DNA from: Streptomyces qaidamensis
GTDB lineage: Bacteria > Actinomycetota > Actinomycetes > Streptomycetales > Streptomycetaceae
Assembly: GCF_001611795.1 (NCBI RefSeq)
Contig: NZ_CP015098.1
Location: 6,138,001-6,202,000, forward strand
DNA length: 64,000 nucleotides
Direction: 5' to 3'
In this document: positions 12,575 through 30,647 of the stretch, in pieces
Layout of the letters: each line of letters opens with the position of its first letter
Numbering within the stretch: position 1 is the first letter of the stretch
The notes under the pieces: model-generated
The model's database searches: none
Told to the model about the DNA's origin: nothing
The model's input: only the letters and a program-made list of their open reading frames with translations
Position numbers and translations under genes: made by a program

Positions 12575-13357
12575 CTAGACGGCGACGGGGGTCTGGTCGG
12601 CCGGCGCGGCGCTGCGGCCGGTGATGGCGAGGAACGTGTCCTGGAGCGAGGCGTCGAGCGAGCCGCCGTGGCGCAGCTTCAGCGCGCTCGGGGTGCCCTC
12701 GGCGACGACCACGCCGTGGTCCACGACGACCAGCCGGTCGGAGAGGGCGTCGGCCTCGTCGAGGTAGTGCGTGGTCAGGAACACCGTCGTGCCGTGCTCG
12801 TCGCGCAGACGGCGCACCAGGTCCCACAGGTCGGCACGGCTGCCGGGGTCGAGACCGGTCGTCGGCTCGTCCAGGAACAGCACCTTCGGGCGGTGGGTGA
12901 GCGCCATCGCGATGTCCAGCCGCCGCCGCTGACCGCCGGAGAGCGCGCCGCACCTGCGGTCGAGGAGCCCGGTGAGGTCCAGGTCGCGGGCCAGTTCCCC
13001 GGCGCGCTCGACGGCCTGCGCCCTGGTCAGCCGGTACAGCCGCCCCTGGGTGACCAGTTCCTCCCGCACGCTGATCTGCGGATCGACCCCGCCGGACTGC
13101 GCCACGTAGCCGCAGGCCCGCCGCACCCCGGCCGCGTCCGTCGCCAGGTCGCATCCCGCGACGGTGGCGGCGCCGCCGGACGGTGCCAGCAGCGTCGTCA
13201 GCATCCGCAGGGTCGTGGTCTTGCCGGCCCCGTTCGGGCCGAGGAAGCCGAGGATCTCGCCCTCGCGGACGGTCAGGTCGATCGAGCGCACGGCCTGAAC
13301 GGGGCCGTTCTTGGTCAGGAAGGTGCGGGCCAGCCCGGCCGTACTGATGATTGCCAT
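12575..13357 (-). CDS. ABC exporter ATPase, DrrA-like
   Basis: This is the nucleotide-binding subunit of an ABC-2 exporter, 260 residues. The Walker A motif GPNGAGKTT (about residues 39-47), signature LSGGQRRRLDIA and Walker B VLFLDEPTTGLD are all intact, followed by the switch TTHYLDEAD. The permease gene follows. The start lies 79 bases from the divergent tetR, with an inverted-repeat operator between. Confidence 0.93.
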   Translation of the reverse strand: MAIISTAGLARTFLTKNGPVQAVRSIDLTVREGEILGFLGPNGAGKTTTLRMLTTLLAPSGGAATVAGCDLATDAAGVRRACGYVAQSGGVDPQISVREELVTQGRLYRLTRAQAVERAGELARDLDLTGLLDRRCGALSGGQRRRLDIAMALTHRPKVLFLDEPTTGLDPGSRADLWDLVRRLRDEHGTTVFLTTHYLDEADALSDRLVVVDHGVVVAEGTPSALKLRHGGSLDASLQDTFLAITGRSAAPADQTPVAV

Positions 13358-13372
13358 GGCCCCAGAAAAACA

Positions 13373-13415
13373 GAGGCTCTTAAAATTTGCAATGACCCCA
13401 AGTTTTCAGAGCCTC
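13373..13415. promoter_or_regulatory. Probable TetR operator between the ABC exporter and its regulator
   Basis: GAGGCTCTTAAAATTT (13373-13388) faces AAGTTTTCAGAGCCTC (13400-13415). The arms are complementary at 14 of 16 positions with an 11-base spacer. It lies centrally between the two divergent starts. A -10-like TAGAAT (13425-13430) just before the tetR ATG at 13437 suggests a leaderless tetR transcript. Confidence 0.7.
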
Positions 13416-13436
13416 CAGGGAAGCTAGAATTCGGAC

Positions 13437-14078
13437 ATGGCTGAGGGGCTCAGGGAACGGAAGAAGCGCGAGACCAGGCAGCGCATCTCGGACATCGCCA
13501 CCGGGCTCTTCCTGGAGCGCGGATTCGTGACGGTGACGATCGCCGACGTGGCGGAAGCGGCCGACGTCTCCGTGAACACCGTCTACAACTACTTCCCGGC
13601 CAAAGAGGACCTCTTCTTCGACCGCTCCCAGGGCGTCGTCGACCGGCTCTCGCGATGGGTGCGCGGCCGGGACGCGGGGGAGTCGGCCACCCGGGCGGTG
13701 CTGCGCGAGCTGCGCGCCGAGATCGAGGCCGTCTCGCCCCGTATGGGCCTCATTGGGGGCTATGACCGTTTCATGCGCTGCATCGAAGAGGCGCCACCGC
13801 TGCGCTCCCGGCTGTGGAGCATCCAGCAGGAGCTCCAGGACAACCTGGAGGCGACCCTCCGCGAGGAGACCGGCGCCACCGTCGGCGATCCGCTGCCCGG
13901 CCTGATCGCCGGTCAGATCTGCTGGGCCCACGGCACCCTTTTCGTCGCGATCGGCCGCGAGATGGTCAAGGGGCGCAACCCGGACGAAGTGTCACGGGAG
14001 ATGCTCGTCGTTCTCGACGACATCGAGGAGTTGTTGGGCGAGAAGGTGCTCAACTACGCCGTACGAGGCGGCGCGTGA
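13437..14078 (+). CDS. TetR-family regulator of the adjacent ABC exporter
   Basis: This is a 213-residue regulator with an N-terminal HTH (residues about 9-55, including TIADVAEAADVSVNTVYNYFPAKEDLF) and a helical ligand-binding domain. It is divergent from the exporter ATPase gene and shares a control region holding a strong inverted repeat. It most likely represses the exporter until it binds an unknown ligand. No clear ribosome site precedes the ATG, in keeping with leaderless translation. Confidence 0.9.
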   Translation: MAEGLRERKKRETRQRISDIATGLFLERGFVTVTIADVAEAADVSVNTVYNYFPAKEDLFFDRSQGVVDRLSRWVRGRDAGESATRAVLRELRAEIEAVSPRMGLIGGYDRFMRCIEEAPPLRSRLWSIQQELQDNLEATLREETGATVGDPLPGLIAGQICWAHGTLFVAIGREMVKGRNPDEVSREMLVVLDDIEELLGEKVLNYAVRGGA

Positions 14079-14082
14079 CGCG

Positions 14083-14101
14083 CGTCTCACGTCGTGAGAC
14101 G
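14083..14101. promoter_or_regulatory. Palindrome upstream of hydroxybutyryl-CoA dehydrogenase
   Basis: CGTCTCAC (14083-14090) and GTGAGACG (14094-14101) form a perfect 8-base inverted repeat with a GTC centre, five bases after the tetR stop. It may end tetR transcription or act as an operator. Just downstream, TTACTAAGCGCTCAC (14111-14125) is a second AT-containing motif that stands out from the GC-rich background. Confidence 0.5.
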
Positions 14102-14194
14102 TGAAACGCGTTACTAAGCGCTCACACGCGCTCTCGCGGGCGCTAGTGTCCGCCGGAGAAGCAGGCATAAGCAGCGCGTCAGGGGAGTCGCACA

Positions 14195-15043
14195 GTGGCA
14201 GGGAAGCTCGCCGTCATCGGGGCCGGCCTCATGGGAGCCGGCATCGCCCAGGTCTCCGCCCAGGCGGGCTGGGAGGTGATCCTGCGTGACGTCACCGACG
14301 AGGCACTGACGCGGGGCACCGACGGCATCAAGGCGTCGTACGACAAGTTCGTCGCCAAGGGCAAGCTGGAAGCGCACGACGCCGACGCCGCCCTGGCCCG
14401 CATCACCGCGACCACCGACCTGGACGCCGCGGCCGACGCGGACGTCGTCGTCGAGGCCGTGTTCGAGAAGCTCGAGGTCAAGCACGAGATCTTCCGCGCG
14501 CTCGACAAGATCGTGAAGGACGAGGCGATCCTCGCCTCCAACACCTCCGCCATCCCGATCACCAAGATCGCGGCGGCCACGGAGCGCCCGGAGCGGGTCG
14601 TCGGCACGCACTTCTTCTCGCCGGTGCCGATGATGCAGCTGTGCGAACTCGTCCGCGGCTACAAGACCAGCGACGAGACCCTCGCCACGGCCCGGCGGTT
14701 CGCCGAGTCGGTGGGCAAGACCTGCATCGTCGTCAACCGCGACGTCGCCGGGTTCGTGACGACCCGTCTCATCTGCGCCCTGGTCGTCGAGGCCGCGAAG
14801 CTGCAGGAGTCGGGCGTGGCCAGCGCCGAGGACATCGACCTGGCCTGCAAGCTGGGCTTCGGCCACGCCATGGGCCCGCTGGCGACGGCGGACCTGACCG
14901 GCGTCGACATCCTGCTGCACGCCACGAACAACATCTACACCGAGTCCCAGGACGAGAAGTTCGCGGCCCCCGAGTCGATGCGCCGGATGGTTGACGCCGG
15001 TGACATCGGACGCAAGAGCGGGCAGGGCTTCTACAAGCACTGA
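14195..15043 (+). CDS. hbd: 3-hydroxybutyryl-CoA dehydrogenase
   Basis: This enzyme interconverts acetoacetyl-CoA and 3-hydroxybutyryl-CoA with NAD(P)H, in butyryl-CoA or ethylmalonyl-CoA type metabolism. The 282-residue length is typical of the stand-alone enzyme. The Rossmann motif GAGLMGAGIAQ lies at residues 8-18, the catalytic His in GTHFFSPVPMMQL, and the C-terminal domain ends DIGRKSGQGFYKH. The GTG at 14195 is placed after GGGGAG (14182-14187). It stands alone, followed by a stable hairpin. Confidence 0.94.
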   Translation: MAGKLAVIGAGLMGAGIAQVSAQAGWEVILRDVTDEALTRGTDGIKASYDKFVAKGKLEAHDADAALARITATTDLDAAADADVVVEAVFEKLEVKHEIFRALDKIVKDEAILASNTSAIPITKIAAATERPERVVGTHFFSPVPMMQLCELVRGYKTSDETLATARRFAESVGKTCIVVNRDVAGFVTTRLICALVVEAAKLQESGVASAEDIDLACKLGFGHAMGPLATADLTGVDILLHATNNIYTESQDEKFAAPESMRRMVDAGDIGRKSGQGFYKH

Positions 15044-15107
15044 AACCGCACATGCCCCGGGCCCATCACACGCCAGGGTGAATTCGGTATCGGTTCGCTT
15101 ACAAGAA

Positions 15108-15142
15108 GCAACCTCTGACTCCTCCACACAGTCAGAGGTTGC
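15108..15142 (+). terminator. 13-base-pair hairpin between hbd and the STAS gene
   Basis: GCAACCTCTGACT (15108-15120) pairs perfectly with AGTCAGAGGTTGC (15130-15142) around CCTCCACAC. It lies 64 bases after hbd and 51 bases before the STAS gene. It has no U-tract, so it could be a terminator or part of the STAS gene leader. Confidence 0.6.
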
Positions 15143-15193
15143 ATCACCCACATCCAGAACGCGGAGCACGATTCGCACGCACGGGGAGCGCAT

Positions 15194-15517
15194 ATGTACA
15201 TCAGGGGCGACCACGCCGAGCTGGTCGTCGGGGGCCGCCTCGACGTCCGGAGCGCGGCGGACGCCCGTACGGTCCTGCACTCGGCCGTCGACGACGGAGT
15301 CGGCGATCTGGTGCTCGACCTGTCCGAACTGGACTCCTGGGACGCCACCGGACTGGGCGTGATCATGGGAGCCCACCGGCGGGCCGGCCGCTGCGGCCGG
15401 CGCCTGGTGCTGCGCGGGGTACCGCCGCAGATGCAGCGCCTGCTGGTGGCCACCCGACTGCACCGGATCCTGGCGATCGAGGGGGGCATCGGGGTGGAGA
15501 CGCTTCCCCGCGTGTGA
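15194..15517 (+). CDS. STAS-domain anti-sigma factor antagonist-like protein
   Basis: This is a 107-residue single-domain STAS protein, a class that releases sigma factors by binding anti-sigma kinases. The core reads LVLDLSELDSWDATGLGVI. The residue that is phosphorylated Ser in most antagonists is Thr here (DATGLG). Streptomyces has many such paralogues and the partner cannot be told from sequence. No kinase or sigma gene is adjacent. The next gene encodes a large NTPase-like membrane protein. Confidence 0.85.
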   Translation: MYIRGDHAELVVGGRLDVRSAADARTVLHSAVDDGVGDLVLDLSELDSWDATGLGVIMGAHRRAGRCGRRLVLRGVPPQMQRLLVATRLHRILAIEGGIGVETLPRV

Positions 15518-15783
15518 CGCCGCGTACGGGTGTGAGCCGGGCGACCGGGGAGACCCGGACGCACGTCGTCGCATCGGGCGACGCGCACAATCCTCACGAG
15601 ACCGTGACGTTACGGACGGCGCGGTACCCCGGACTGTCGTAGATACTGTGCGAAGGTTTAGGGTTCGGCTGCCCGCTGCCTTGACACCCTTCGGCGGGAC
15701 CGGACCAGAAGCGACAGCGCGGTGTGCAGCAAGGCCGGGAGGGGCTTTTCCAAGCACACACACGCTTTTGGGGGGCTTGACCT

Positions 15784-18285
15784 ATGGATCCTGACAACCA
15801 GGGACCCGAGGAGTACGGCCACGAAGGTGACGGCCCCGCGCCGCGCCAGCGCCCTCCCAGGGAATCCCTCACACCCGACTTCGCGCAGCACGCGCCGGCG
15901 CTCGCCCGCACCGTGCAGCTCGTCTCCGGCGACTTCCTGCTGACCGTCAACCCCGTCGACGGCAGCGAGATAGAGGCCTGCCCGCCCGCCGAACGGCCTG
16001 CCCGGCCCGAGAAGCTCACCGCGGCCGAGCGGGCCGAGGCCGAGCGCGCCGCCCGCCCGCCCGTCCCGCCCGGCCCGGCGCTGCCCGTCCTGCCGCTGCT
16101 GGCCCGCCAGGACGAGCGCGAGCGCCTGGTGCGCCTGCTCGCCCGCGGCCGCTCCACGCGCCTGACCGGCGCGGCCGGCTCCGGCCGCACCCGCCTCCTG
16201 GACCTCGTCGCCGAGGACTGCTCCGACCTCGCCCCCGACGGCGTCGTCCGCCTCAACGGCTTCGGACGCACCGCCGACGACCTGCTGTACGACCTGTTCC
16301 ACGCGGTGTACAGCGCCCCCCTGCACCGCCCGGACCGGGACGAACTGCTCACCTACGTCCGTGACATCGGTGCGGTCGTCGTCCTCGACGACCTGGAGTT
16401 CGGCGGCGCCGCGCTCGACGAGCTGCTGGAGGCGACCCCCGAGTGCGCCTTCCTGCTCGGCGCCACCCCGGACGTGCCGGCCCCCTCCGCCGACGCCGGC
16501 GTCGAGGAGGTCCTCCTCGGCGGGCTGGAGCGCGCGGCCGGGCTCGACCTGCTGGAACACGCCGTCGGCCGGACCCTCACCGAGGACGAGTCCAACTGGG
16601 CGGGCGACCTCTGGTTCGAGTCCGAGGGCCTGCCGCTGCGCTTCGTCCAGGCCGGTGCCCTGCTGCGGCAGCGCGACCGGCTGCGCGCCGGCACCGGCGC
16701 CGTCGACGAGTTCGGCGTCTTCGAGGACGCGCCCCCGGACGACCCCGCCGACTCCTACGACCTCGGTGACGACGTGCCGCTGCCGGCGCTCGGCGAGGCC
16801 GCCGCGCCCGCCCCGCTGCTCGCCTCCCGGCTGAGCGCCTCCGCCCGCGCCACCCTGCGGTTCGCCGTCGCCCTGGGCGGCGAGGTCCCGCACCAGGCGC
16901 ATCTGCCCGCCCTGGTCGGCGACACCCACGCGGACGCCGCACTCGGCGAACTGGCCGCCTGCGGCCTCGTCTCCCCGGTCGGCTCCCGCTACCGCCTCGC
17001 GGCCGGCGTCCCGGCCCAGCTGGAAGCCGCCGGGTACGCCGACGAGGCCGAGGCCGCAGCCCGCAGTGCCGCCCAGCACTACTCCTGGTGGGCCGGGCAC
17101 CCCTCGGTCACCCCCGAGCGGGTGTGCGCCGAGGCCGACGCGGTCCTCGCCGCCCTGGCCCTCCTCGGACCCGCCACCCGGCCGCCCGCCGAGGACGAGG
17201 AGAGCGCGGCCGTCCACCTGGCCCGCACCGCCGCCCCCGCGTTCGCCGCCGGACTGCACTGGAGCGCCTGGGAGCGGGCCCTGCGGGCCGGCGCCGAGGC
17301 AGCCCGGCTCGCAGGGGACGTCGGCGAAGAGGCCTACTTCCACCACGAGCTCGGCGTCCTCGCCCTGTGCGGGGGGCAGCTCGACCGGGCCCGTGCCGAA
17401 CTGGAGGCCTCCATCGGCCTGCGCGGCGCCCTCGCCGACAAGCGCGGGACCGTCGCCGGCCGCCGTGCCCTGGTCCTGGTCGCCGACCGCTCGGGCACGC
17501 CGATCGGGCTCGGGCCGACCGCGGGGGAGGAGGTGCCCGACGCCCGGGACGAGGAGTCGGCGTCCCCGCCCGGCGGTGTTCCGGCGGCCTTCCCGACGCT
17601 CCAGAAGCCGCCCTCCCCGACGCTGGTCACCCACCGCAGCTCGCCCGCGCCCTCGCGCAAGGCGCGCGGCGGCCTCAAGGGCCTGGCCCGGCGCAACCTC
17701 GTGGCCGCCGGTGCCGGTGCCCTGCTCGTCGCGGTCCTGGGCACGGTGGTGACGCTCGGCGCCACTTCCGACAAGGATCAGAACCCGCCGTCCGACCAGG
17801 TCGGCGTCAACCCGTCCGCCAGCCAGGGCGTCGACGACGGCAGCCTCGGCGCCGACCGGCCGGCGAACGAGGGCGGGGGAGGCACCGGCGAGGCGGCAGC
17901 CCGCCCGACCGACCCGGGCCCGGACGGCACGATCGGCACGTCGGACGACCCGACGCCGACGGACTCCCCGAGCGGTTCGCAGGAACCGAGCGACTCCGCG
18001 TCGCCGTCGAAGCCGCCGACGTCCTCGAAGCCGTCCACGTCCAAGCCGCCGACGACGTCCAAGCCCCCCACGACGTCCAAGCCGCCGACGTCGAAGCCGC
18101 CGACGTCCGAGCCGCCGACCTCGGAGCCGCCGACGTCCGAGCCGCCCACCTCGGAGCCGCCGACGACCAGCCCGTCCACCTCCGACTCGGCCAGCGGCCC
18201 GGCGCCCAGCGCTCCCATGAGCACCTCGGCGAGCGCGTCGCAGAGCACCACAGGCACGCCGAGCGGCCCGGAGACGGTGATCTGA
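15784..18285 (+). CDS. NTPase-like protein with C-terminal membrane anchor and proline-rich external tail
   Basis: The 833-residue protein is of unknown function. After a disordered Pro/Arg-rich start, a P-loop-like motif GAAGSGRT lies at about residues 129-136, with Arg where Lys is normal, and a Walker B-like VVVLDDLEF at about 199-207. This resembles a STAND/AAA-type ATPase core. A helical, Ala-rich middle (about 350-580) could be a repeat scaffold. One hydrophobic helix (about 641-660) is followed by a tail rich in Pro, Thr, Ser and Lys with PPTTSKPP and PPTSEPP repeats (about 740-800), typical of a cell-wall spacer. Topology would be cytoplasmic ATPase, outside tail. The ATG at 15784 follows a GGGGGG run. 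Confidence 0.75.
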   Translation: MDPDNQGPEEYGHEGDGPAPRQRPPRESLTPDFAQHAPALARTVQLVSGDFLLTVNPVDGSEIEACPPAERPARPEKLTAAERAEAERAARPPVPPGPALPVLPLLARQDERERLVRLLARGRSTRLTGAAGSGRTRLLDLVAEDCSDLAPDGVVRLNGFGRTADDLLYDLFHAVYSAPLHRPDRDELLTYVRDIGAVVVLDDLEFGGAALDELLEATPECAFLLGATPDVPAPSADAGVEEVLLGGLERAAGLDLLEHAVGRTLTEDESNWAGDLWFESEGLPLRFVQAGALLRQRDRLRAGTGAVDEFGVFEDAPPDDPADSYDLGDDVPLPALGEAAAPAPLLASRLSASARATLRFAVALGGEVPHQAHLPALVGDTHADAALGELAACGLVSPVGSRYRLAAGVPAQLEAAGYADEAEAAARSAAQHYSWWAGHPSVTPERVCAEADAVLAALALLGPATRPPAEDEESAAVHLARTAAPAFAAGLHWSAWERALRAGAEAARLAGDVGEEAYFHHELGVLALCGGQLDRARAELEASIGLRGALADKRGTVAGRRALVLVADRSGTPIGLGPTAGEEVPDARDEESASPPGGVPAAFPTLQKPPSPTLVTHRSSPAPSRKARGGLKGLARRNLVAAGAGALLVAVLGTVVTLGATSDKDQNPPSDQVGVNPSASQGVDDGSLGADRPANEGGGGTGEAAARPTDPGPDGTIGTSDDPTPTDSPSGSQEPSDSASPSKPPTSSKPSTSKPPTTSKPPTTSKPPTSKPPTSEPPTSEPPTSEPPTSEPPTTSPSTSDSASGPAPSAPMSTSASASQSTTGTPSGPETVI

Positions 18286-18301
18286 CACCCGTACACACGG
18301 C

Positions 18302-18332
18302 AGGGCCGGGTCCGTTCCGCGGACCCGGCCCT
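18302..18332. terminator. Bidirectional terminator
   Basis: AGGGCCGGGTCCG (18302-18314) pairs perfectly with CGGACCCGGCCCT (18320-18332) around TTCCG, then TTTCG. It serves the upstream plus-strand gene and probably nucS, which converges on it 20 bases away. Confidence 0.88.
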
Positions 18333-18351
18333 TTCGTCGTCGTACGGGCTG

Positions 18352-19023
18352 TCAGAACAGCCGCAGCTTGTCGTCCTCGATGCCCCGCAGCGCGTTGTAG
18401 TCGAGGACCTGGCAGCCGATGCCGCGGTCGGTCGCGAGGACGCGGGCCTGGGGCTTGATCTCCTGGGCCGCGAAGACGCCGCGCACCGGGGCGAGATGGG
18501 GGTCGCGGTTCAGCAGCTCCAGATAGCGCGTGAGCTGCTCCACGCCGTCGATCTCGCCGCGCCGCTTGATCTCCACCGCGACGGTCTTGCCGTCGGCGTC
18601 CCGGCACAGGATGTCGACCGGCCCGATGGCCGTCGGGTACTCCCGGCGGATCAGCGTGTAGCCCTCGCCGAGTGTCTCGATGCGGTCGGCGAGCAGCTCC
18701 TGGAGGTGCGCTTCCACGCCGTCCTTGATCAGGCCGGGATCGACGCCCAGTTCGTGCGAGGAGTCGTGGAGGACTTCCTCCATCGTGATGATGAGCTTCT
18801 CGCCCGCCTTGTTGACGACGGTCCAGACGCCCTCTTCCTCGCCGGTGCCCTCTTTCAGGGTGCAGGGCGGCGACATCCAGTTCAGGGGCTTGTAGGCCCG
18901 GTCGTCGGCGTGGATCGAGACGCTGCCGTCCGCCTTCACCAGGATCAGGCGCGGGGCCGAGGGAAGGTGGGCGGTGAGCCGCCCGGCGTAGTCCACGGAG
19001 CAGCGGGCAATGACGAGACGCAT
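18352..19023 (-). CDS. nucS: Mismatch-specific endonuclease NucS/EndoMS
   Basis: This enzyme cuts both strands at G-T, G-G and T-T mismatches, the basis of actinobacterial mismatch repair in organisms without MutS/MutL. The 223-residue protein has the N-terminal dimerisation/DNA-binding domain and a RecB-like nuclease core with [30 protein letters not shown] and the QxxxY element. It ends in DDKLRLF, the kind of tail that binds the sliding clamp. The ATG at 19023 ([12 protein letters not shown]) is used. An in-frame ATG three codons earlier gives MPT and is not conserved. Confidence 0.95.
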
Positions 19024-19276
19024 GGTCGGCAACGCTACTCGACGGGCACCTGTCCACGCGATTCGCCCTGGAAAACACGTGTTCGGTAATGGCCGATTGT
19101 GTGCATGGTGTGCTCAGCGGGAGTGTCTCATCTGCGCATTTTCCTGGTGCCGCCACCGTACGGTGCTTACCGTATGAACGGGAGGTCGCGAGGCGTGTAC
19201 GCAGCGTGTCCGGTATCGCGAACTCCCCCTATCTGTCCGGCAACCCCTGCTCGTCGGGGGTGCGAGAGGAGAACTC

Positions 19277-19669
19277 ATGTCGCTCGACGTCTCACCGGCC
19301 CTACTCGAACAGGCCGAGCGAGGCGAGGTCGACGAAGCGGAATTCGTCGACTGCGTCCGGACCTCCCTGCCTTATGCGTGGGAGATGATCAGCTCACTGG
19401 TGGCCCAGCTGAAGGTGGACGGCGGCGCGTTCGCCGACAACCAGACGCCCCCGCCGGACGAGCAGGCACGCGGCCAGCTGCTGCGTGCGCTTGCGAGTGA
19501 CGCGATACGCGGCGCGCTGCAACGGCACTTCGGTGTGCGGCTGGCTTTCCAGAACTGCCACCGGGTGGCCGTGTTCCCGCTTGACTCCTCGGTCGACGAG
19601 AAGCTGGACCGCTTCACCTCGGTCCGCAGTCAGGTGCTGAACCAGTCACCCGAGTTCCGGGACTGCTGA
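19277..19669 (+). CDS. SCO5389-family conserved protein
   Basis: The product is a 130-residue soluble protein found across Streptomyces. No function is known to me. It has no signal peptide or membrane helix. An acidic first third (ALLEQAERGEVDEAEFVDC) precedes a helix with SLPYAWEMISSLVAQL. The ATG follows GAGAGGAG at 19265-19272. It stands alone, divergent from nucS, with a stem-loop behind it. Confidence 0.85.
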   Translation: MSLDVSPALLEQAERGEVDEAEFVDCVRTSLPYAWEMISSLVAQLKVDGGAFADNQTPPPDEQARGQLLRALASDAIRGALQRHFGVRLAFQNCHRVAVFPLDSSVDEKLDRFTSVRSQVLNQSPEFRDC

Positions 19670-19682
19670 CGCGGCGCCGCTT

Positions 19683-19732
19683 GCTTGCCGCTCCGTACGC
19701 GGGAGGTGCAGTTCTGTACCGGAGCGGCAAGC
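19683..19732. terminator. Long-stem terminator-like hairpin
   Basis: GCTTGCCGCTCCG (19683-19695) pairs with CGGAGCGGCAAGC (19720-19732). GTAC on each inner side extends the stem with one bulge. The loop is about 20 bases. It lies between two convergent genes and ends about 20 bases before the oxidoreductase stop. Confidence 0.7.
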
Positions 19733-19750
19733 CCCAGGAACCCACCGCGC

Positions 19751-20779
19751 TCAGACGAGTTGGGGGAGCACCTCGGCGCCCAGCCGCCGCACGTTCTCCT
19801 CGGTCGCCGCCAGGTCTCCGGAGCCCTCGACGAGCAGCGCGAACCGGGAGATGCCCGTCCGCTCGCTGGTCGCCGCGAGCCGGTCCGCGCACAGCCGCGG
19901 GGTGCCCACCGGGTGCAGCCCGCAGAGCAGTTCGGTGTACGCCAGCGGGTCGCGCATCCGGCGTGTGCGCCCGTCGACCGTGACATGGGCCTCCAGGCCC
20001 TGCTTCAGCCAGCCCGGCATCGCCTTCATCAGCGTCTCCGCCGCGTCGACCCGCCGGTCCGCGATCTGGCAGACGCCGGCCGATACATGGGACGCGCCCC
20101 GGATCTCCTCCGGCGACCGGCCGCAGGCCCGCGCGTGCTGCCGCCACAGTGCGACCATCTCGGCCTTCTCCTCGTCCCCCACGTGCATCCCGAGCAGCAT
20201 CGAAAGACCCCGCTCGGCCGCCAGCCGCACACTCGACGGCGAGGTGCAGGCGACGACCAGCTCGGGCCCGGCGGCCTCCGTCAGTGCCTCCGACGGCCGG
20301 GGCACCACCGGGACTTCACGGAAGCGGAAGCGCTCCCCGTGGGCCGCCACGGACGACTCGCGCAGCCACCGCACCAGAAGCTCCAGGGACTCCGGGAACC
20401 CCTTCTCGTACGCCTCCAGGCCCGCGCCGAACACCTCCAGGTCGACCCACGGGCCGCCGCGCCCGACACCGAGCGTGAAACGGCCGCCGCTCGTGTGGTG
20501 CAGCAGCGCGGCCTGTTCGCCGAGGGCCACGGGGTGGACGGTGGGCAGGACACTGACCGCCGTGCCCACCCGGATGCGGCGGGTGCGGCCCAGCAGTAAG
20601 GCGGCCAGGGTGATGGCCGACGGGCACGTGCCGTACGGCACGAAGTGGTGCTCGGCCAGCCAGACCGTGTCGAGCCCGGCCTCCTCGGCCACCTCGGCCG
20701 AGCGGACCGCGCGGTGCAGCGCCTCTCCCTCGCCCTGACCGGGGAACTGGGCCGCCAACACGAAACTTCCAACGCGCAT
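19751..20779 (-). CDS. Luciferase-like (LLM class) flavin-dependent oxidoreductase
   Basis: This is a 342-residue monooxygenase-like protein of the bacterial luciferase superfamily, probably using FMN or F420. Family signatures are AEVAEEAGLDTVWLAEHHF (about residues 28-46), the conserved GRTRRIRVGTAVSVLP, and GRFTLGVGRGG. The substrate is unknown. The ATG at 20779 (MRVGSFVLAAQFPGQ) follows AGGAAAG on the minus strand. A much longer frame upstream runs through the neighbouring plus-strand gene and is rejected. Nothing nearby points to a pathway. Confidence 0.87.
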   Translation of the reverse strand: MRVGSFVLAAQFPGQGEGEALHRAVRSAEVAEEAGLDTVWLAEHHFVPYGTCPSAITLAALLLGRTRRIRVGTAVSVLPTVHPVALGEQAALLHHTSGGRFTLGVGRGGPWVDLEVFGAGLEAYEKGFPESLELLVRWLRESSVAAHGERFRFREVPVVPRPSEALTEAAGPELVVACTSPSSVRLAAERGLSMLLGMHVGDEEKAEMVALWRQHARACGRSPEEIRGASHVSAGVCQIADRRVDAAETLMKAMPGWLKQGLEAHVTVDGRTRRMRDPLAYTELLCGLHPVGTPRLCADRLAATSERTGISRFALLVEGSGDLAATEENVRRLGAEVLPQLV

Positions 20780-25547: not shown

Positions 25548-26483
25548 TTACCGGGACTGCTGCGCCGGGACCCCACGGGAGATCGGCTCGTCCTCGGCCG
25601 GCGTGCCGGCGGCGGCCACCGCGGCGCCCGTGAGCGTCGCGAGCATCTCGCGGACGTTCGTCAGCTGGGCGTTGATGCTGTCGCGGCGGTTGGTGAGGGC
25701 GGCCAGCTCGCGCTCGGATTCCGAACGGATGCGGTCGGCCTTGGCGTTGGCATCGGCCACGATGTCCTCGGCCTGGCGCTGAGCCGTCTCCACCGTCTGG
25801 CGGGCGCGGCGCTCGGCGTCCGTGCGCAGCTTCTCGGCCTCCAGGCGCAGCTGCTCGGCGCGGTGCTCGATCTCGGCGAGGCGCTTCTCGGCCTTGGCCT
25901 GACGCGAGGCCAGGTCGCGCTCGGACTGCTCGCGGCGCTTGGCGAGGTTCGTCTCGAAGTCGGCGGCGGCCTGCGCGGCCTTCGCACGGGTCTCCTCGAA
26001 GAGGGCGTCCGCCTCCTCGCGCTTGGACTGCGCGTCCTTCTGCGCCTCGGAACGCAGCTGGGAGGCGTCGCTCTTGGCCTTCTCGACGATCCGCAGGCCC
26101 TCGTCCTCGGCCTTCGCCTTGCGCTCCGCCGAGTACGACTCGGCGTCGTTGCGCACCTGCTGGGCCGCCGACTCGGCCAGCTCACGGTGCTGCTCGGCCG
26201 CGCGCCGGGCCTCCTCGCGCAGGTCCTTCGCCTCTTCCTCGGCGAGGCGGAGGATCTTCTCCACGCGCGCACCGAGACCCGCGTACGACGGCTCGGCGTC
26301 GGTGATCTGGGCCTGGGCGTTCTGCGTCTCGAGGTGGAGCTCTTCGATGCGCTTTTCCAGAGCGGTGATGCGGGCGAGAGCGCTGTCACGGTCGGAGACG
26401 AGCTTGGAGATACGTTCGTCCACCTGAGCGCGGTCGTACCCACGCCGCACAAGCTCGAAGCCGTAGGGGGAAGTGTCGCTCAT
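25548..26483 (-). CDS. filP: Filament-forming coiled-coil protein FilP
   Basis: FilP forms intermediate-filament-like networks at hyphal tips and works with DivIVA in polar growth of Streptomyces. The 311-residue protein begins MSDTSPYGFELVRRGYDRAQVDERI, then is almost wholly coiled coil rich in Ala, Glu, Arg, Lys and Gln, broken near residues 65-75 (DAEPSYAGLGARVEKIL), and ends in a short Ala/Pro tail. Length and sequence plan match S. coelicolor FilP. It is followed by a strong terminator and preceded by scy, its known partner. Confidence 0.94.
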   Translation of the reverse strand: MSDTSPYGFELVRRGYDRAQVDERISKLVSDRDSALARITALEKRIEELHLETQNAQAQITDAEPSYAGLGARVEKILRLAEEEAKDLREEARRAAEQHRELAESAAQQVRNDAESYSAERKAKAEDEGLRIVEKAKSDASQLRSEAQKDAQSKREEADALFEETRAKAAQAAADFETNLAKRREQSERDLASRQAKAEKRLAEIEHRAEQLRLEAEKLRTDAERRARQTVETAQRQAEDIVADANAKADRIRSESERELAALTNRRDSINAQLTNVREMLATLTGAAVAAAGTPAEDEPISRGVPAQQSR

Positions 26484-26666: not shown

Positions 26667-29600
26667 CTAGCTATCCGAACCCTTGCCACCCGAACGGGGT
26701 GCGCCGACCGTCGCGCCCGCCTTGACTCCGTTGTCCTTGCCCGCGGAGGGGGCCTCGAAGGACTCCAACGCCTCAAGGACGTCCTGGACACGGGAGATCT
26801 CGGCGTTGATGTCCTCGCGGCGACGGACCAGGACCTCCAGCTCGCGCTTGCCCTCCTCGACCGTGCGCTTGGCCTCGCGGATCGCCTCGGCCTTGAGCTC
26901 CTCGGCCTCCCGGACCAGCGTGGACTTCTTCTGCTCGGCCTCCTTGAGCAGCCCCTCCGCCTTCTTCACCGCGGCGATACGGACCTTGCCCGCCTCGGAG
27001 TTGGCCTCCGAGACGATCTCCTTGGCCTTCGCCTGCGCCTTCGCCAGCTGCTCCTCGGCCGCCTTGACGAGCGCGTCACAGCGGTCGCCCGCCGACTTCA
27101 TCGTCTCGGCCGACTCCCGGCGGGCCCGCTCGTGCAGCTCCTCGATCTCGGAGGTGATGCGGTCGCGCAGCTCCTCGGCACGCTCCCTGATCTGCGTGGC
27201 GTCCCGGCGCGCGCCGACCAGCAGCTCGTCCGCGTCCGTACGGGCCTTCTCCACCAGGGAGTTGCCCTCGACCGTCGCCTCGGACACCAGCCGGTCGGCC
27301 TCGGTGCGGGCCGCGCCCACCATCGTGTCGGCCTGCGACTCGGCCTCCGCGGTGGTCTTGTGCGCCTGCTGCTGCGCCTCGGTCAGCAGCTTGTCCGCCT
27401 CGGCCGTGGTCTCCGTGATGAGCTTGTCGACCTGCTCGGCCGCCTCGGAACGCCGCTTGTTGGCGTCCTTGCGGGCGCCGTCCAGCGTGCGGTCGGCCTC
27501 CTCGCGCGCGGCGCTGACCAGCCGCTCCGCCTCCGCCTCCGCATCGGTCTTCACCCGCTGGGCCTCGGCGCGGATCCGCTGCGCGTGCTGCTGCGCCGAA
27601 CCGACCGTCTCGGCGGCCTCGGCCCGCAGCCGCTCCGCCTCGCTCGTGGCGTCCCCGACGAGCTGCTCGGCCTTGGCGACCGACTCCGAGCGCACCCGCT
27701 CGGCCTCGGTGGCCGCCTCGGAGCGGACGCGTTCGGCCTCGGAGACCGCCTCCGTACGGACCCGCTCGGCCTCGGCGACCGTGTCCATGCGCAGCCGGTC
27801 GGTCTCCTGGACCGTCTCCGTCGTCAGCCGCTCCGCCTCGTTGCGGGCCTCGGTGATGAGGGTGTCCGCCTGCGTCGCCGCGTCGGAGCGGATGCGGTTG
27901 GCGTCCTCCCGGGCGTCCGCCCGGGTGCGCGAGGCGCTCTGCTCGGCCTCGGCGATCGCGTCCGACGCCTCCGTGCGCACCCGCTGGGCGTGCTCGGCGA
28001 CGTCCGCGCGGATCCGCTCCGCCTCCGAGATCGCCTCGGACATCGTCCGCTCGGCGAGTGCCTTGGCGGCCTCGGACTCCTCGTGCGCCTCGCGCCGCAG
28101 CCGGCCCGCGTCCTCGCTCGCCCGCTCCCGCTCGGCGTAGGCGTCGGAGCGGACCCGGTCCGCCTCCTCCTGGGCCTCGCGGCGCGTACGGTCCGCCGCG
28201 TGCTCGGCGGCGGAACGCAGACCGGTGATCTCCTCCTGGGCCTGCTCGTGCAGCCCCGCGACGGAGTCCCGGACCTGCTGGGCGTGCTGCTCGGCCGCCG
28301 ACACCATCTCCGTGGCACGGCGGTCGGCCTCCTCGACCAGCCGTACGGCCTCGGTCTGCGCCTCCTCCACGCGCTTGCGCGCCGAGGCCAGCAGCTCCTC
28401 GCTCTGCTCGCGGGCCCGCTCGCGCTCCTGGTCGGCCTCCTGCCGGGCGCTGCCGAGAACCTCCTCGGCCTCGCGGCGGCGCCGGTTGGCCTCCTCCTGG
28501 GCGGCGGCCAGCGTCTCCGACGCCTCCGCGGCGAGCCGCTCGGCGGCGGCCTGCGCCTCCGCGCGCATCCGGTCGGCGCTCTCCTGCGCCTCCGACTTCA
28601 GCCGCTCGGCCTCGCTCGCCGCCTCCGAACGCAGCCGTACGGCGACGGCCTCGCCCTCGGCACGCGCCGCGGACGCGTCGGACGCGGCCTCGTCGCGCAG
28701 CCGCTCGGCCTCGGCCGCGGCCTGCTGCTGGAGCGTCCGGATCCGCTCGGCGGCCTCGGCGCGCAGCCGCTCGTTCTCCTCGGCGGCCTCGCGGCGGATC
28801 CGCGCGGCCTCCTCACGGGCGTCCGACAGCGCCTGCTCGGCGGCCGTCAGCCGCTCCTCCGCCTCCGTCTGGAGCCGCGTCAGCTCCTCGGCGGCCTCGG
28901 CGCGACGGGCCTCCATGGCCCGCTCGGTCTCCTCGTGCAGCTCCCGCGCCGCGCGCTCGGCGTCCTCCCTGAGCGCCTCGGCCTGCTCGACGACCTCCTC
29001 GCGGTGCCGCTCGGCCTCCTGCCGGGTGCGCTGGAGGGTCTCCTCGGCCTGCCGGCGCAGCGTCGTCGCCCGCTCGATGGCCTCGGTGCGGACCCTCTCG
29101 CTGTCCGTCTGGGCCGTCGTGCGCAGCTCGTCCGCGTCCGCCTTGGCCTTGGCGAGCAGCTCCTCGGCGGACTTCGCCGCCTCCTCGATCTGCGCCACGG
29201 CCTCCTTGCGGGCCCCGGCGCGGATCTTCTCGCCCTCGTCGACCGCGTCCGCCCGCAGCTGCTCGGCCTCGCCGCGCAGCCGGCGGGCCTCCTCCTGCAG
29301 CTCGACCGTCTTGGCGCGGTACTCCTTGGTGTCGTCCTTCGCCGCGCCCTTGAGCTGCTCGGCGATGTCGTGCGCCTCGGCCCGCAGCCGGTCCGCCTCG
29401 GCCTCGGCCTCCGAGCGGATCCGCTCGGCCTCCTCGGCCGCCGCCTTCGTCGTCTTCTTGGCGTCCTCCGACGCCTTGTTGAGGACCTCCTCGGCGGTCC
29501 TGGCCGCCTTGGACAGCTGGGTCGCGGTCTCCTCGGCGGTGAGCGTGCGGGCCTTCTCGGAGGCCTCCGCGACGATCTTCTCGGCCTCGGCGCGGGCGTC

Positions 29601-30647
29601 GGCGACCAGCTGCTCGGCCTCGGACTTGGTGTGCTCGGCCTCCTTCGTGGCCTCCTCGACCAGCCGGGCGACCTGCTCCTTGGCGGTGCGTGTACGGGTC
29701 TCGTTCGCGGACTCGGCGCTCGACAGGGCCTTGGCGGCGGCCTCCTTGGCCTCCGTGACCAGCTTCTCCGACTCGGTCTGCGCCTTGCGCAGCGCCTCCT
29801 CGGCCTCGGCCATCCGCTGCTCGGCGGCCCTGCTCAGCTCCTGGGCCTCGCGGCGCGCCGACTCCGACTCCGTGGCGCTGGACGTGCGCAGCTGCTCGGC
29901 GTGGTCGGTGGCCTCCTGGGCCTGTGTGGACGCGGCGTTGAGCAGGCGCTCGGCGTCCGTGCGGGCGCGGCGCAGGATCTGCTCGGCCTCGGCCCGGGCC
30001 TCCTCGGCAGCGCCCGTCAGCCGCTGCCGGGCCTCCGTGGTCAGCCGCTCGGCCTCCGCGCGGGCGGTGGCCAGGGCCTGCTCGGCCTCGGCGCGGGACT
30101 CCTCCAGCAGCCGGCGGGCCTGCTGCTCGGTGCGGGCCCGCAGCTGCTCGGCCCAGGCCACGTTCTCGTTGACGTGCGACTCGACCGTCTGGCGGCGCTC
30201 GGCCAGCTCCTGGTCCAGCTGCTGGCGGCGGGTCACCGCCTCCTGGTGCAGCTCGGCCTGGAGCCGGGCGGCCTGCTCGGCGTGCTCCTGGAGGATCCGC
30301 TGGGTCTGCGCCCGGGCCTCGCTCAGCTCGCGGTCGGCGTCCGCGCGGATCTGGTCGGCCTGCACCTGAGCGTTGCGCAGCAACTGCTCGGCCTGCCAGC
30401 CGATGTCGCCCCCGTCGAAGGAGGGCCGGGACATGATGGTGCGCCGCGCCTCGTGCAGCTTGGCGCGCAGCACCTCGACCTGGTAGCCGAGGTCCTCGGC
30501 GTGCTGGATCGCCTTTTCCCGTTCGGTCTTCAGCCGCTTCATCTCGGCTTCGAACCGAGAGAGGTGGTCGACGTCAGCCGCCGGCTCTCGCTCCTGGCTC
30601 TCGTAGCCCCGCACTGCGCGGTCCCATCCGTCCCCTGGTCGCAACAC
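26667..30647 (-). CDS. scy: Giant coiled-coil polarity protein Scy
   Basis: Scy is a scaffold at the hyphal tip that interacts with DivIVA, FilP and ParA and sets the number of tips. The reading frame covers 1326 residues. It is almost entirely a repetitive coiled coil, with units such as AEAERVRTEAVSEAERVRSEA, and has no P-loop or membrane helix. The start is uncertain: a TTG at 30647 after GGAGAG gives 1326 residues, while a GTG at 30614 would begin at VRGYESQEREP, which looks closer to the conserved region. Confidence 0.93.
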   Translation of the reverse strand: MLRPGDGWDRAVRGYESQEREPAADVDHLSRFEAEMKRLKTEREKAIQHAEDLGYQVEVLRAKLHEARRTIMSRPSFDGGDIGWQAEQLLRNAQVQADQIRADADRELSEARAQTQRILQEHAEQAARLQAELHQEAVTRRQQLDQELAERRQTVESHVNENVAWAEQLRARTEQQARRLLEESRAEAEQALATARAEAERLTTEARQRLTGAAEEARAEAEQILRRARTDAERLLNAASTQAQEATDHAEQLRTSSATESESARREAQELSRAAEQRMAEAEEALRKAQTESEKLVTEAKEAAAKALSSAESANETRTRTAKEQVARLVEEATKEAEHTKSEAEQLVADARAEAEKIVAEASEKARTLTAEETATQLSKAARTAEEVLNKASEDAKKTTKAAAEEAERIRSEAEAEADRLRAEAHDIAEQLKGAAKDDTKEYRAKTVELQEEARRLRGEAEQLRADAVDEGEKIRAGARKEAVAQIEEAAKSAEELLAKAKADADELRTTAQTDSERVRTEAIERATTLRRQAEETLQRTRQEAERHREEVVEQAEALREDAERAARELHEETERAMEARRAEAAEELTRLQTEAEERLTAAEQALSDAREEAARIRREAAEENERLRAEAAERIRTLQQQAAAEAERLRDEAASDASAARAEGEAVAVRLRSEAASEAERLKSEAQESADRMRAEAQAAAERLAAEASETLAAAQEEANRRRREAEEVLGSARQEADQERERAREQSEELLASARKRVEEAQTEAVRLVEEADRRATEMVSAAEQHAQQVRDSVAGLHEQAQEEITGLRSAAEHAADRTRREAQEEADRVRSDAYAERERASEDAGRLRREAHEESEAAKALAERTMSEAISEAERIRADVAEHAQRVRTEASDAIAEAEQSASRTRADAREDANRIRSDAATQADTLITEARNEAERLTTETVQETDRLRMDTVAEAERVRTEAVSEAERVRSEAATEAERVRSESVAKAEQLVGDATSEAERLRAEAAETVGSAQQHAQRIRAEAQRVKTDAEAEAERLVSAAREEADRTLDGARKDANKRRSEAAEQVDKLITETTAEADKLLTEAQQQAHKTTAEAESQADTMVGAARTEADRLVSEATVEGNSLVEKARTDADELLVGARRDATQIRERAEELRDRITSEIEELHERARRESAETMKSAGDRCDALVKAAEEQLAKAQAKAKEIVSEANSEAGKVRIAAVKKAEGLLKEAEQKKSTLVREAEELKAEAIREAKRTVEEGKRELEVLVRRREDINAEISRVQDVLEALESFEAPSAGKDNGVKAGATVGAPRSGGKGSDS

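Follow-up and report, generated by a model that had tools for sequence, protein, structure and literature searches.

A single-pass membrane protein conserved in Streptomycetaceae with a predicted STAND fold and an altered nucleotide switch

The gene at positions 15784-18285 (+ strand) of the window, the whole stretch of 64,000 nucleotides of Streptomyces qaidamensis DNA analysed here, codes for a single-pass membrane protein of 833 aa that, judged by its sequence and predicted fold, is best described as a STAND-fold protein with an altered switch and not as a regular STAND NTPase, because the predicted fold, the Walker B motif, and the GLPL motif are in place, whereas Walker A lacks its Lys and sensor-I its basic residue. 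Its cytoplasmic module may hold nucleotide without normal turnover and work as an envelope-coupled scaffold or sensor, a reading suggested by the alignments and the fold model to which we give an even chance of being right. The ORF is supported by its orthologues, runs from ATG to TGA with a GC3 of 0.95, and lies in a genome of 9.08 Mb assembled as a single contig. From the numbering of neighbouring genes, the S. coelicolor counterpart would be named SCO5387: in the available text of the respective papers, SCO5388 is nucS (PMC5290159) and SCO5396 is filP, with SCO5397 also named (PMC2680258). A literature search with most subscription journals outside its scope found no paper on this gene, also under the name SCO5387.

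All the features of the protein are encoded on the + strand. Starting from the N-terminus, the alignment and the predicted fold delineate a beta segment at residues 42-64 (15907-15975), which holds VSGDFLLTVNPVDGSEIE, has a column identity of 93% in Streptomyces, and corresponds in the alignment to the GD.N segment found in most paralogues. It is followed by the altered Walker A GAAGSGRT (residues 129-136, 16168-16191), in which Arg135 is encoded by a CGC codon at 16186-16188, by the Walker B AVVVLDDLE (residues 197-205, 16372-16398), by the sensor-I equivalent GATPD (residues 226-230, 16459-16473), which in the alignment carries no basic residue, and by the GLPL motif (residues 282-285, 16627-16638). 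The predicted fold and the structural matches then define a helical-repeat, TPR-like region at residues 413-575 (17020-17508), with the fold model stopping at residue 572. Further downstream, hydropathy and alignment identify the transmembrane helix with its flanks (residues 637-662, 17692-17769, RNLVAAGAGALLVAVLGTVVTLGATS), and composition and alignment identify a P/S/T-rich outer tail (residues 663-833, 17770-18282) whose translation includes PPTTSKPP and PPTSEPP repeats at residues ~743-797 (18010-18174). The original prediction had recognised GAAGSGRT and VVVLDDLEF (residues 198-206) as Walker motifs with Arg in place of Lys, and a single membrane helix leading to proline-rich repeats; both motifs are indeed present in the 833-aa ORF, Arg135 is confirmed, and one strong hydrophobic stretch precedes the P/S/T-rich tail.

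Sequence profiles leave the protein outside the curated families. Specifically, the Pfam AAA_16 model misses its curated threshold (17.6 bits against a cut-off of 32.6), AAA_22 gives a sub-threshold match only, and no match of the protein to the Pfam NB-ARC model is listed at E up to 1; likewise, the NCBIfam search returns nothing and the PDB sequence search returns no relatives at E up to 1, leaving kin to be recognised by fold comparison only. The Pfam Extensin match (23.9 against a cut-off of 105) was discarded, as it reflects the proline-rich tail. AlphaFold2 was applied to residues 31-572, excluding the membrane helix and the tail, with an alignment of 45 rows; the best of the five models has a pLDDT of 85.1 and a pTM of 0.81, and the others have mean pLDDT values from 79.0 to 62.7. 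As the alignment has little depth (mean column identity of 77%), no weight is placed on side-chain detail. In the model, the P-loop is flanked by a strand and a helix, as expected. VIA-align superposes it on the NB-ARC of NRC1 (8bv0; Z 21.0, 3.0 Å, 285 residues), on Apaf-1 (3sfz; Z 20.1, 4.2 Å, 401 residues), and on the STAND-TPR protein 6mfv (Z 19.7, 3.8 Å, 333 residues), and the best Foldseek matches are again Apaf-1 and 6mfv, with the five best having modest TM-scores by query (0.36-0.45), rmsd values of 11.8-16.1 Å, and 12-17% identity. The fold prediction that had been proposed as a check of the original prediction thus points to a STAND/NB-ARC fold for the cytoplasmic part, in which P-loop NTPase, helical, and winged-helix parts are all predicted.

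Compared with the NB-ARC and Apaf-1 STAND proteins (8bv0, 3sfz), representatives of the immune and cell-death switches of plants and animals, the protein shares the predicted nucleotide-binding, helical, and winged-helix fold, the Walker B DD, and the GLPL motif, a motif name of NB-ARC proteins; conversely, it differs in the P-loop Arg, in the missing sensor-I basic residue, in the absence by Pfam of CARD, WD40, or LRR domains, and in the presence of the membrane helix and the outer tail. With 6mfv and chain C of 8bob (Z 19.7 and 16.7), the latter from an entry on the negative regulation of the maltose system and which we take to be MalT, it shares a STAND core followed by helical repeats; we know of no membrane anchor in either of these proteins, and Pfam detects no DNA-binding output domain in the protein described here.

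Arg occupies the P-loop Lys position in all 81 Streptomyces rows and, across genera, in 116 of the 119 orthologue rows, the others having Lys (2/119) or Gly (1/119), so that the alignment of homologues, also proposed beforehand as a check, upholds its conservation. This protein accordingly departs from the GxxxxGK[ST] Walker A pattern of STAND P-loop NTPases, while it retains the Walker B pattern hhhhD[DE]: Gly134, Thr/Ser136, and Asp202 are each unchanged in 119/119 rows, and the residue after Asp202 is Asp or Glu in 115/119. The invariance of Gly134 and Asp202, and the alignment of the cytoplasmic part and the helix across genomes of more than 100 species, indicate a conservation of the ORF beyond chance. 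The Arg codons of the orthologues are CGC (103), CGT (7), CGG (4), and CGA (2). The 119 rows consist of this gene, loci L083-L089 (7) and L101-L104 (4), 98 loci of the sampled genomes, and 9 chosen from the best 80 public-genome loci; the remaining 71 of the best 80 are counted only in the 81-row Streptomyces set, and the two sets, which may share genomes (L026 and L086, equal in length, look like one contig), are not summed. Dropped before the count were L204 (a broken reading from a 76% complete genome), L082 and L105 (this gene itself), L126 (the same gene as L205), and L094-L100 (other STANDs or no core match). In L102, the orthologue frame runs into an esterase-like stretch through LLYQSDAADA, presumably a sequence resembling the translation of a sequencing adapter, and the run-on is probably an assembly artefact.

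General drift in a GC-rich genome does not account for the Arg, since, among the best 30 of 100 matches to AAA_16 from this genome, 27 have Lys and one has Arg (L228), with L222 showing no motif and L243 showing it only elsewhere, a control to be read with the caveat that a profile search favours Lys-bearing proteins. L228, near 5.739 Mb of the same genome, and L095 have the Arg P-loops GTPGSGRT and GPPGSGRT, respectively, indicating that the Lys-to-Arg change also occurs sporadically elsewhere.

A close comparison is offered by 14 actinobacterial membrane STAND paralogues (L081 from Nonomuraea, L090-L093, and L206-L214), distributed in Streptomycetaceae, another family of the same order, and Nonomuraea, a group of which no description was found in the literature searched. 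Most of them share the GD.N segment, the NTPase, and the helical region with the protein, and they have one C-terminal hydrophobic helix followed by a further C-terminal part. In contrast, their P-loop has Lys (12/14) or Thr (2/14), their sensor-I basic residue is kept in 12/14, and their C-terminal parts are different. The Thr of L208 (GPPGTGTS) and L209 (GPSGTGTS) represents a third state of the P-loop site, with L208 aligning poorly after its P-loop. Several paralogues have an Ala- and His-rich linker, and the Lys paralogues (L081, L090-L093, L206, L207, and L210-L214) have varied small parts after the helix, some with several Cys. Around the paralogues, neither STAS nor NucS was matched in the fetched stretches. 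Their helices are preceded by at most one Lys/Arg and followed by at most two, so that, with few charges on either side, their topology is not set by the charge rule. The expectation that STAND proteins rarely cross the membrane fails for this group, whose members share the C-terminal hydrophobic helix; moreover, the original prediction had named as evidence against itself Lys-bearing homologues with normal folds and no conserved membrane segment, which is not what is seen: all 12 Lys paralogues and both Lys orthologues keep the C-terminal helix.

A quick tree (131 rows and 453 columns, with the P-loop Arg position excluded and L204, L208, and L209 omitted), which drew a program warning about meeting long branches, places the 12 Lys paralogues used on one side of a branch with a support of 100, and the two Lys orthologues stand separately. 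At least four changes of P-loop state are needed on this tree; most simply, Arg arose once at the root of the orthologues, Lys was regained twice, and Gly appeared once, a history that is likely rather than proven. Judging from the layout shared with the paralogues, the membrane architecture probably predates the Arg. The two Lys orthologues, L104 and L200, are found at the same locus as the Arg orthologues, and L141, which has Gly at the Arg position, has also lost the first P-loop Gly, a sign that the P-loop site was abandoned on at least one occasion.

The second alteration concerns the TSR-like sensor-I motif, a STAND feature, whose place, when aligned with ordinary STAND-like proteins, is occupied in the orthologues mostly by ATPD or similar residues. 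Arg or Lys is found within residues 222-231 in 4/119 orthologues versus 12/14 paralogues, and L104 and L200 are likewise devoid of the basic residue; its loss makes the binding without hydrolysis suggested in the original prediction more plausible. Another difference is the Arg-Pro at residues 182-183, present in 117/119 orthologues versus 1/14 paralogues. The GLPL motif of NB-ARC proteins is present in 109/119 orthologues, this protein among them. At the aligned place of the NB-ARC MHD motif there is no MHD-like His and RLAA-like residues are found instead; this loss says little, because the His is present in three of the seven ordinary bacterial STAND-like proteins aligned and absent from the other four.

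In the preferred reading, the cytoplasmic module would be arranged as an N-terminal beta segment, a nucleotide-binding domain, the GLPL and winged-helix part, and TPR-like helices, with an altered switch in which Arg has become fixed at the P-loop Lys position and sensor-I has lost its basic residue; both residues would be expected to take part in sensing the terminal phosphates of the nucleotide or in acting on them. The nucleotide would most likely be held without normal hydrolysis or exchange, as the invariance of Gly134, Thr/Ser136, and Asp202 is the pattern expected from selection for bound nucleotide, and the module, instead of cycling as an ATPase, would serve as a stable oligomerisation scaffold or sensor anchored in the membrane. 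The membrane helix, probably via helix-helix packing, would join this module to the flexible P/S/T-rich tail in the cell wall, and the protein may monitor the envelope or organise components there. An envelope signal may be converted into a cytoplasmic output, possibly via the neighbouring STAS protein, a candidate partner by linkage only.

The strongest competing explanation, although an unlikely one, is that Arg simply stands in for Lys and that the protein is an ordinary ATP/ADP STAND switch anchored to the membrane by chance. The Lys of L104 and L200 at the same locus speaks for it, as Arg and Lys may be interchangeable and hydrolysis may persist, and so do the three invariant residues and the Arg P-loops of the AAA_16-like L228 and of the STAND-like L095; the sensor-I basic residue, however, is gone too, even in the two Lys orthologues, and Lys is kept by 27 of the 30 AAA_16-like loci examined. 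Moreover, in the available text on tomato I-2, an NB-ARC protein of the same fold, the laboratory change K207R is reported to lower the Km for ATP and to cause loss of function, which also favours the preferred reading, although the authors themselves caution that, at the ATP levels of the cell, binding may not be reduced (PMC4714197). More doubtful still is a pseudo-NTPase scaffold that binds no nucleotide and whose domain serves as a protein-binding or oligomerising platform between the wall and the cytoplasm: in its favour are L141, in which neither the first P-loop Gly nor the Arg remains, the loss at sensor-I, and the fact that, in Streptomyces, the NTPase domain is less conserved than the membrane helix, but the conservation of Gly134, Thr/Ser136, and Asp202 exceeds the needs of a dead pocket.

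The strongest hydrophobic stretch of the protein spans residues 640-658 (mean Kyte-Doolittle value 2.24), and the next one, at residues 447-465 (1.53), lies within the predicted helical region. A helix with a mean hydropathy of at least 1.6 after residue 560 is present in 118/119 orthologue rows, and Lys and Arg are more numerous before the helix than after it in 116/119 orthologues, with means over 15 residues of 4.5 and 0.86, respectively, in the 119 rows. From this charge pattern, the N-terminal part is predicted to be inside and the tail outside, in agreement with the outward orientation initially proposed. The helix and its flanks (residues 637-662) have a mean column identity of 97.7% in the 81 Streptomyces rows, the highest of 11 segments, compared to 93.8% for the winged-helix region, 87.6% for the NTPase domain, and 56.7% for the tail repeats; outside Streptomyces, the helix is more variable. 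Such conservation is more than a simple anchor would call for, which makes specific packing between helices likely. Beyond the helix, the tail consists of 22% P, 21% S, and 15% T; VGVNPSASQG and AD are kept next to the membrane on its outer side in Streptomyces, and tail length and repeat type vary among orthologues. The calcium-loop-like tail motif DPGPDGTIGTSDDP was rejected as a general feature, being found by a loose pattern in 24/119 orthologues. A mainly structural wall anchor or spacer, with the tail as the important part and the cytoplasmic domain simply carried along, is very improbable: the tail is long and P/S/T-rich, like wall-spanning linkers, but its repeats are the least conserved part (57%), against column identities of 87-94% in the cytoplasmic domains.

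In a scan of public genomes, at least 526 relatives were found among 593 candidate stretches, of which the best 80 were kept, all from Streptomyces, and Streptomyces are the closest named relatives at this gene among the matches listed. A match is present in 100 of the 101 Streptomycetaceae genomes sampled, including 98/98 genomes of good quality and 17/17 genera, the exception being a genome of 1650 contigs with 7% contamination (G058); an alignable orthologue row was obtained from 99 Streptomycetaceae genomes, that of the gene itself included, and the orthologue of G094 is a broken reading. A same-genus genome (G008; 98% complete, 740 contigs) has no orthologue and only a different STAND, L095. 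Outside the family, no convincing orthologue was found among 110 genomes from other families of the same class (best E 2e-23; 118 searched) and none in eight genomes of other families of the order (best E 6e-14, corresponding to paralogues L090 and L091). The plasmid collection gave one weak match, in a chromosome-sized Nonomuraea record, which proved to be the Lys paralogue L081. Most simply, the gene is an old, vertically kept member of Streptomycetaceae.

The gene neighbourhood is also conserved. A STAS-domain gene (15194-15517, +) lies upstream on the same strand and precedes the orthologue in 64/70 loci, nucS is located downstream on the opposite strand in 54/70 loci (fetched stretches of 3.9-7.5 kb), and both flank the orthologue in 53/70; 17/70 loci are without STAS or NucS within reach, several because the stretch ends early, and five loci from two distant genera (L191, L193, L194, L195, and L203) have neither. 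The STAS protein has DATGLG, as in 100 of 106 STAS matches of the fetched loci, window copies included. Many anti-anti-sigma factors have D-S-[ST]-G where the linked protein reads D-A-T-G, and its usual phosphorylation site may, on this comparison, be altered too. Between the STAS gene and the gene of the membrane protein, an alignment of 24 Streptomyces upstream regions, this one included, outlines a conserved region (15588-15783, +) with the blocks CAATCCTCACGAGAC.GTGA, CTGTCG.AGATACTG....AAGGTTTA, CCGGACCAGAAGCGACAGCG, and GGGGG before the ATG, in which CCGGACCAGAAGCGACAGCG is a long leader element; the region probably contains the gene's own promoter and leader. A regulatory RNA was considered and rejected, as no Rfam family reaches its gathering score in 13000-20000, despite the conserved leader. 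Further along the window, the ORF at 19277-19669, which matches the Pfam family PF20704 "NucS shadow ORF" (2.8e-65), sits divergently upstream of nucS and does not overlap it, and two genes with sub-threshold DivIVA matches (25548-26483 and 26667-30647) are, by position and size, probably the counterparts of S. coelicolor filP (SCO5396) and SCO5397.

A role in defence or conflict, like that of proteins described for multicellular bacteria, with the outer domain as the sensor, is hardly credible. The outer sequences of the paralogues are varied, and PMC7159879, in its available part, describes inactive STAND domains from systems of this type; however, nearly all genomes of the family have the orthologue, mostly at a single locus, unlike accessory defence genes, and no PADLOC family is matched at E up to 0.1. 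The iSTAND of the MoxR-vWA ternary systems, as far as described there (PMC7159879), resembles the protein in being a catalytically altered STAND domain and differs from it in the near-universal presence and single main locus of the latter. Moreover, the adjacent genes here are STAS and NucS, and MoxR or vWA partners were found in 0/20 ORFs scanned at 3.1-30.7 kb of the window, a scan that covers part of the ORFs in this interval and in which 4/20 match no family.

Returning to the altered-switch reading, the protein could, tentatively, be a core receptor of the whole family, namely a nucleotide-locked membrane STAND platform that reads the cell wall via its proline-rich tail and a sequence-specific helix. 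If such a receptor exists, evolution would have fixed the very P-loop substitution by which NB-ARC switches are disabled experimentally. STAND switches are generally regarded as dependent on the P-loop Lys, and a gene that is near-universal in the large family Streptomycetaceae and has kept Arg across genera, with Lys in its relatives, represents a natural experiment on which parts of the switch are dispensable. In bacteria that are major antibiotic producers, it is also a candidate for connecting the envelope with the cytoplasm.
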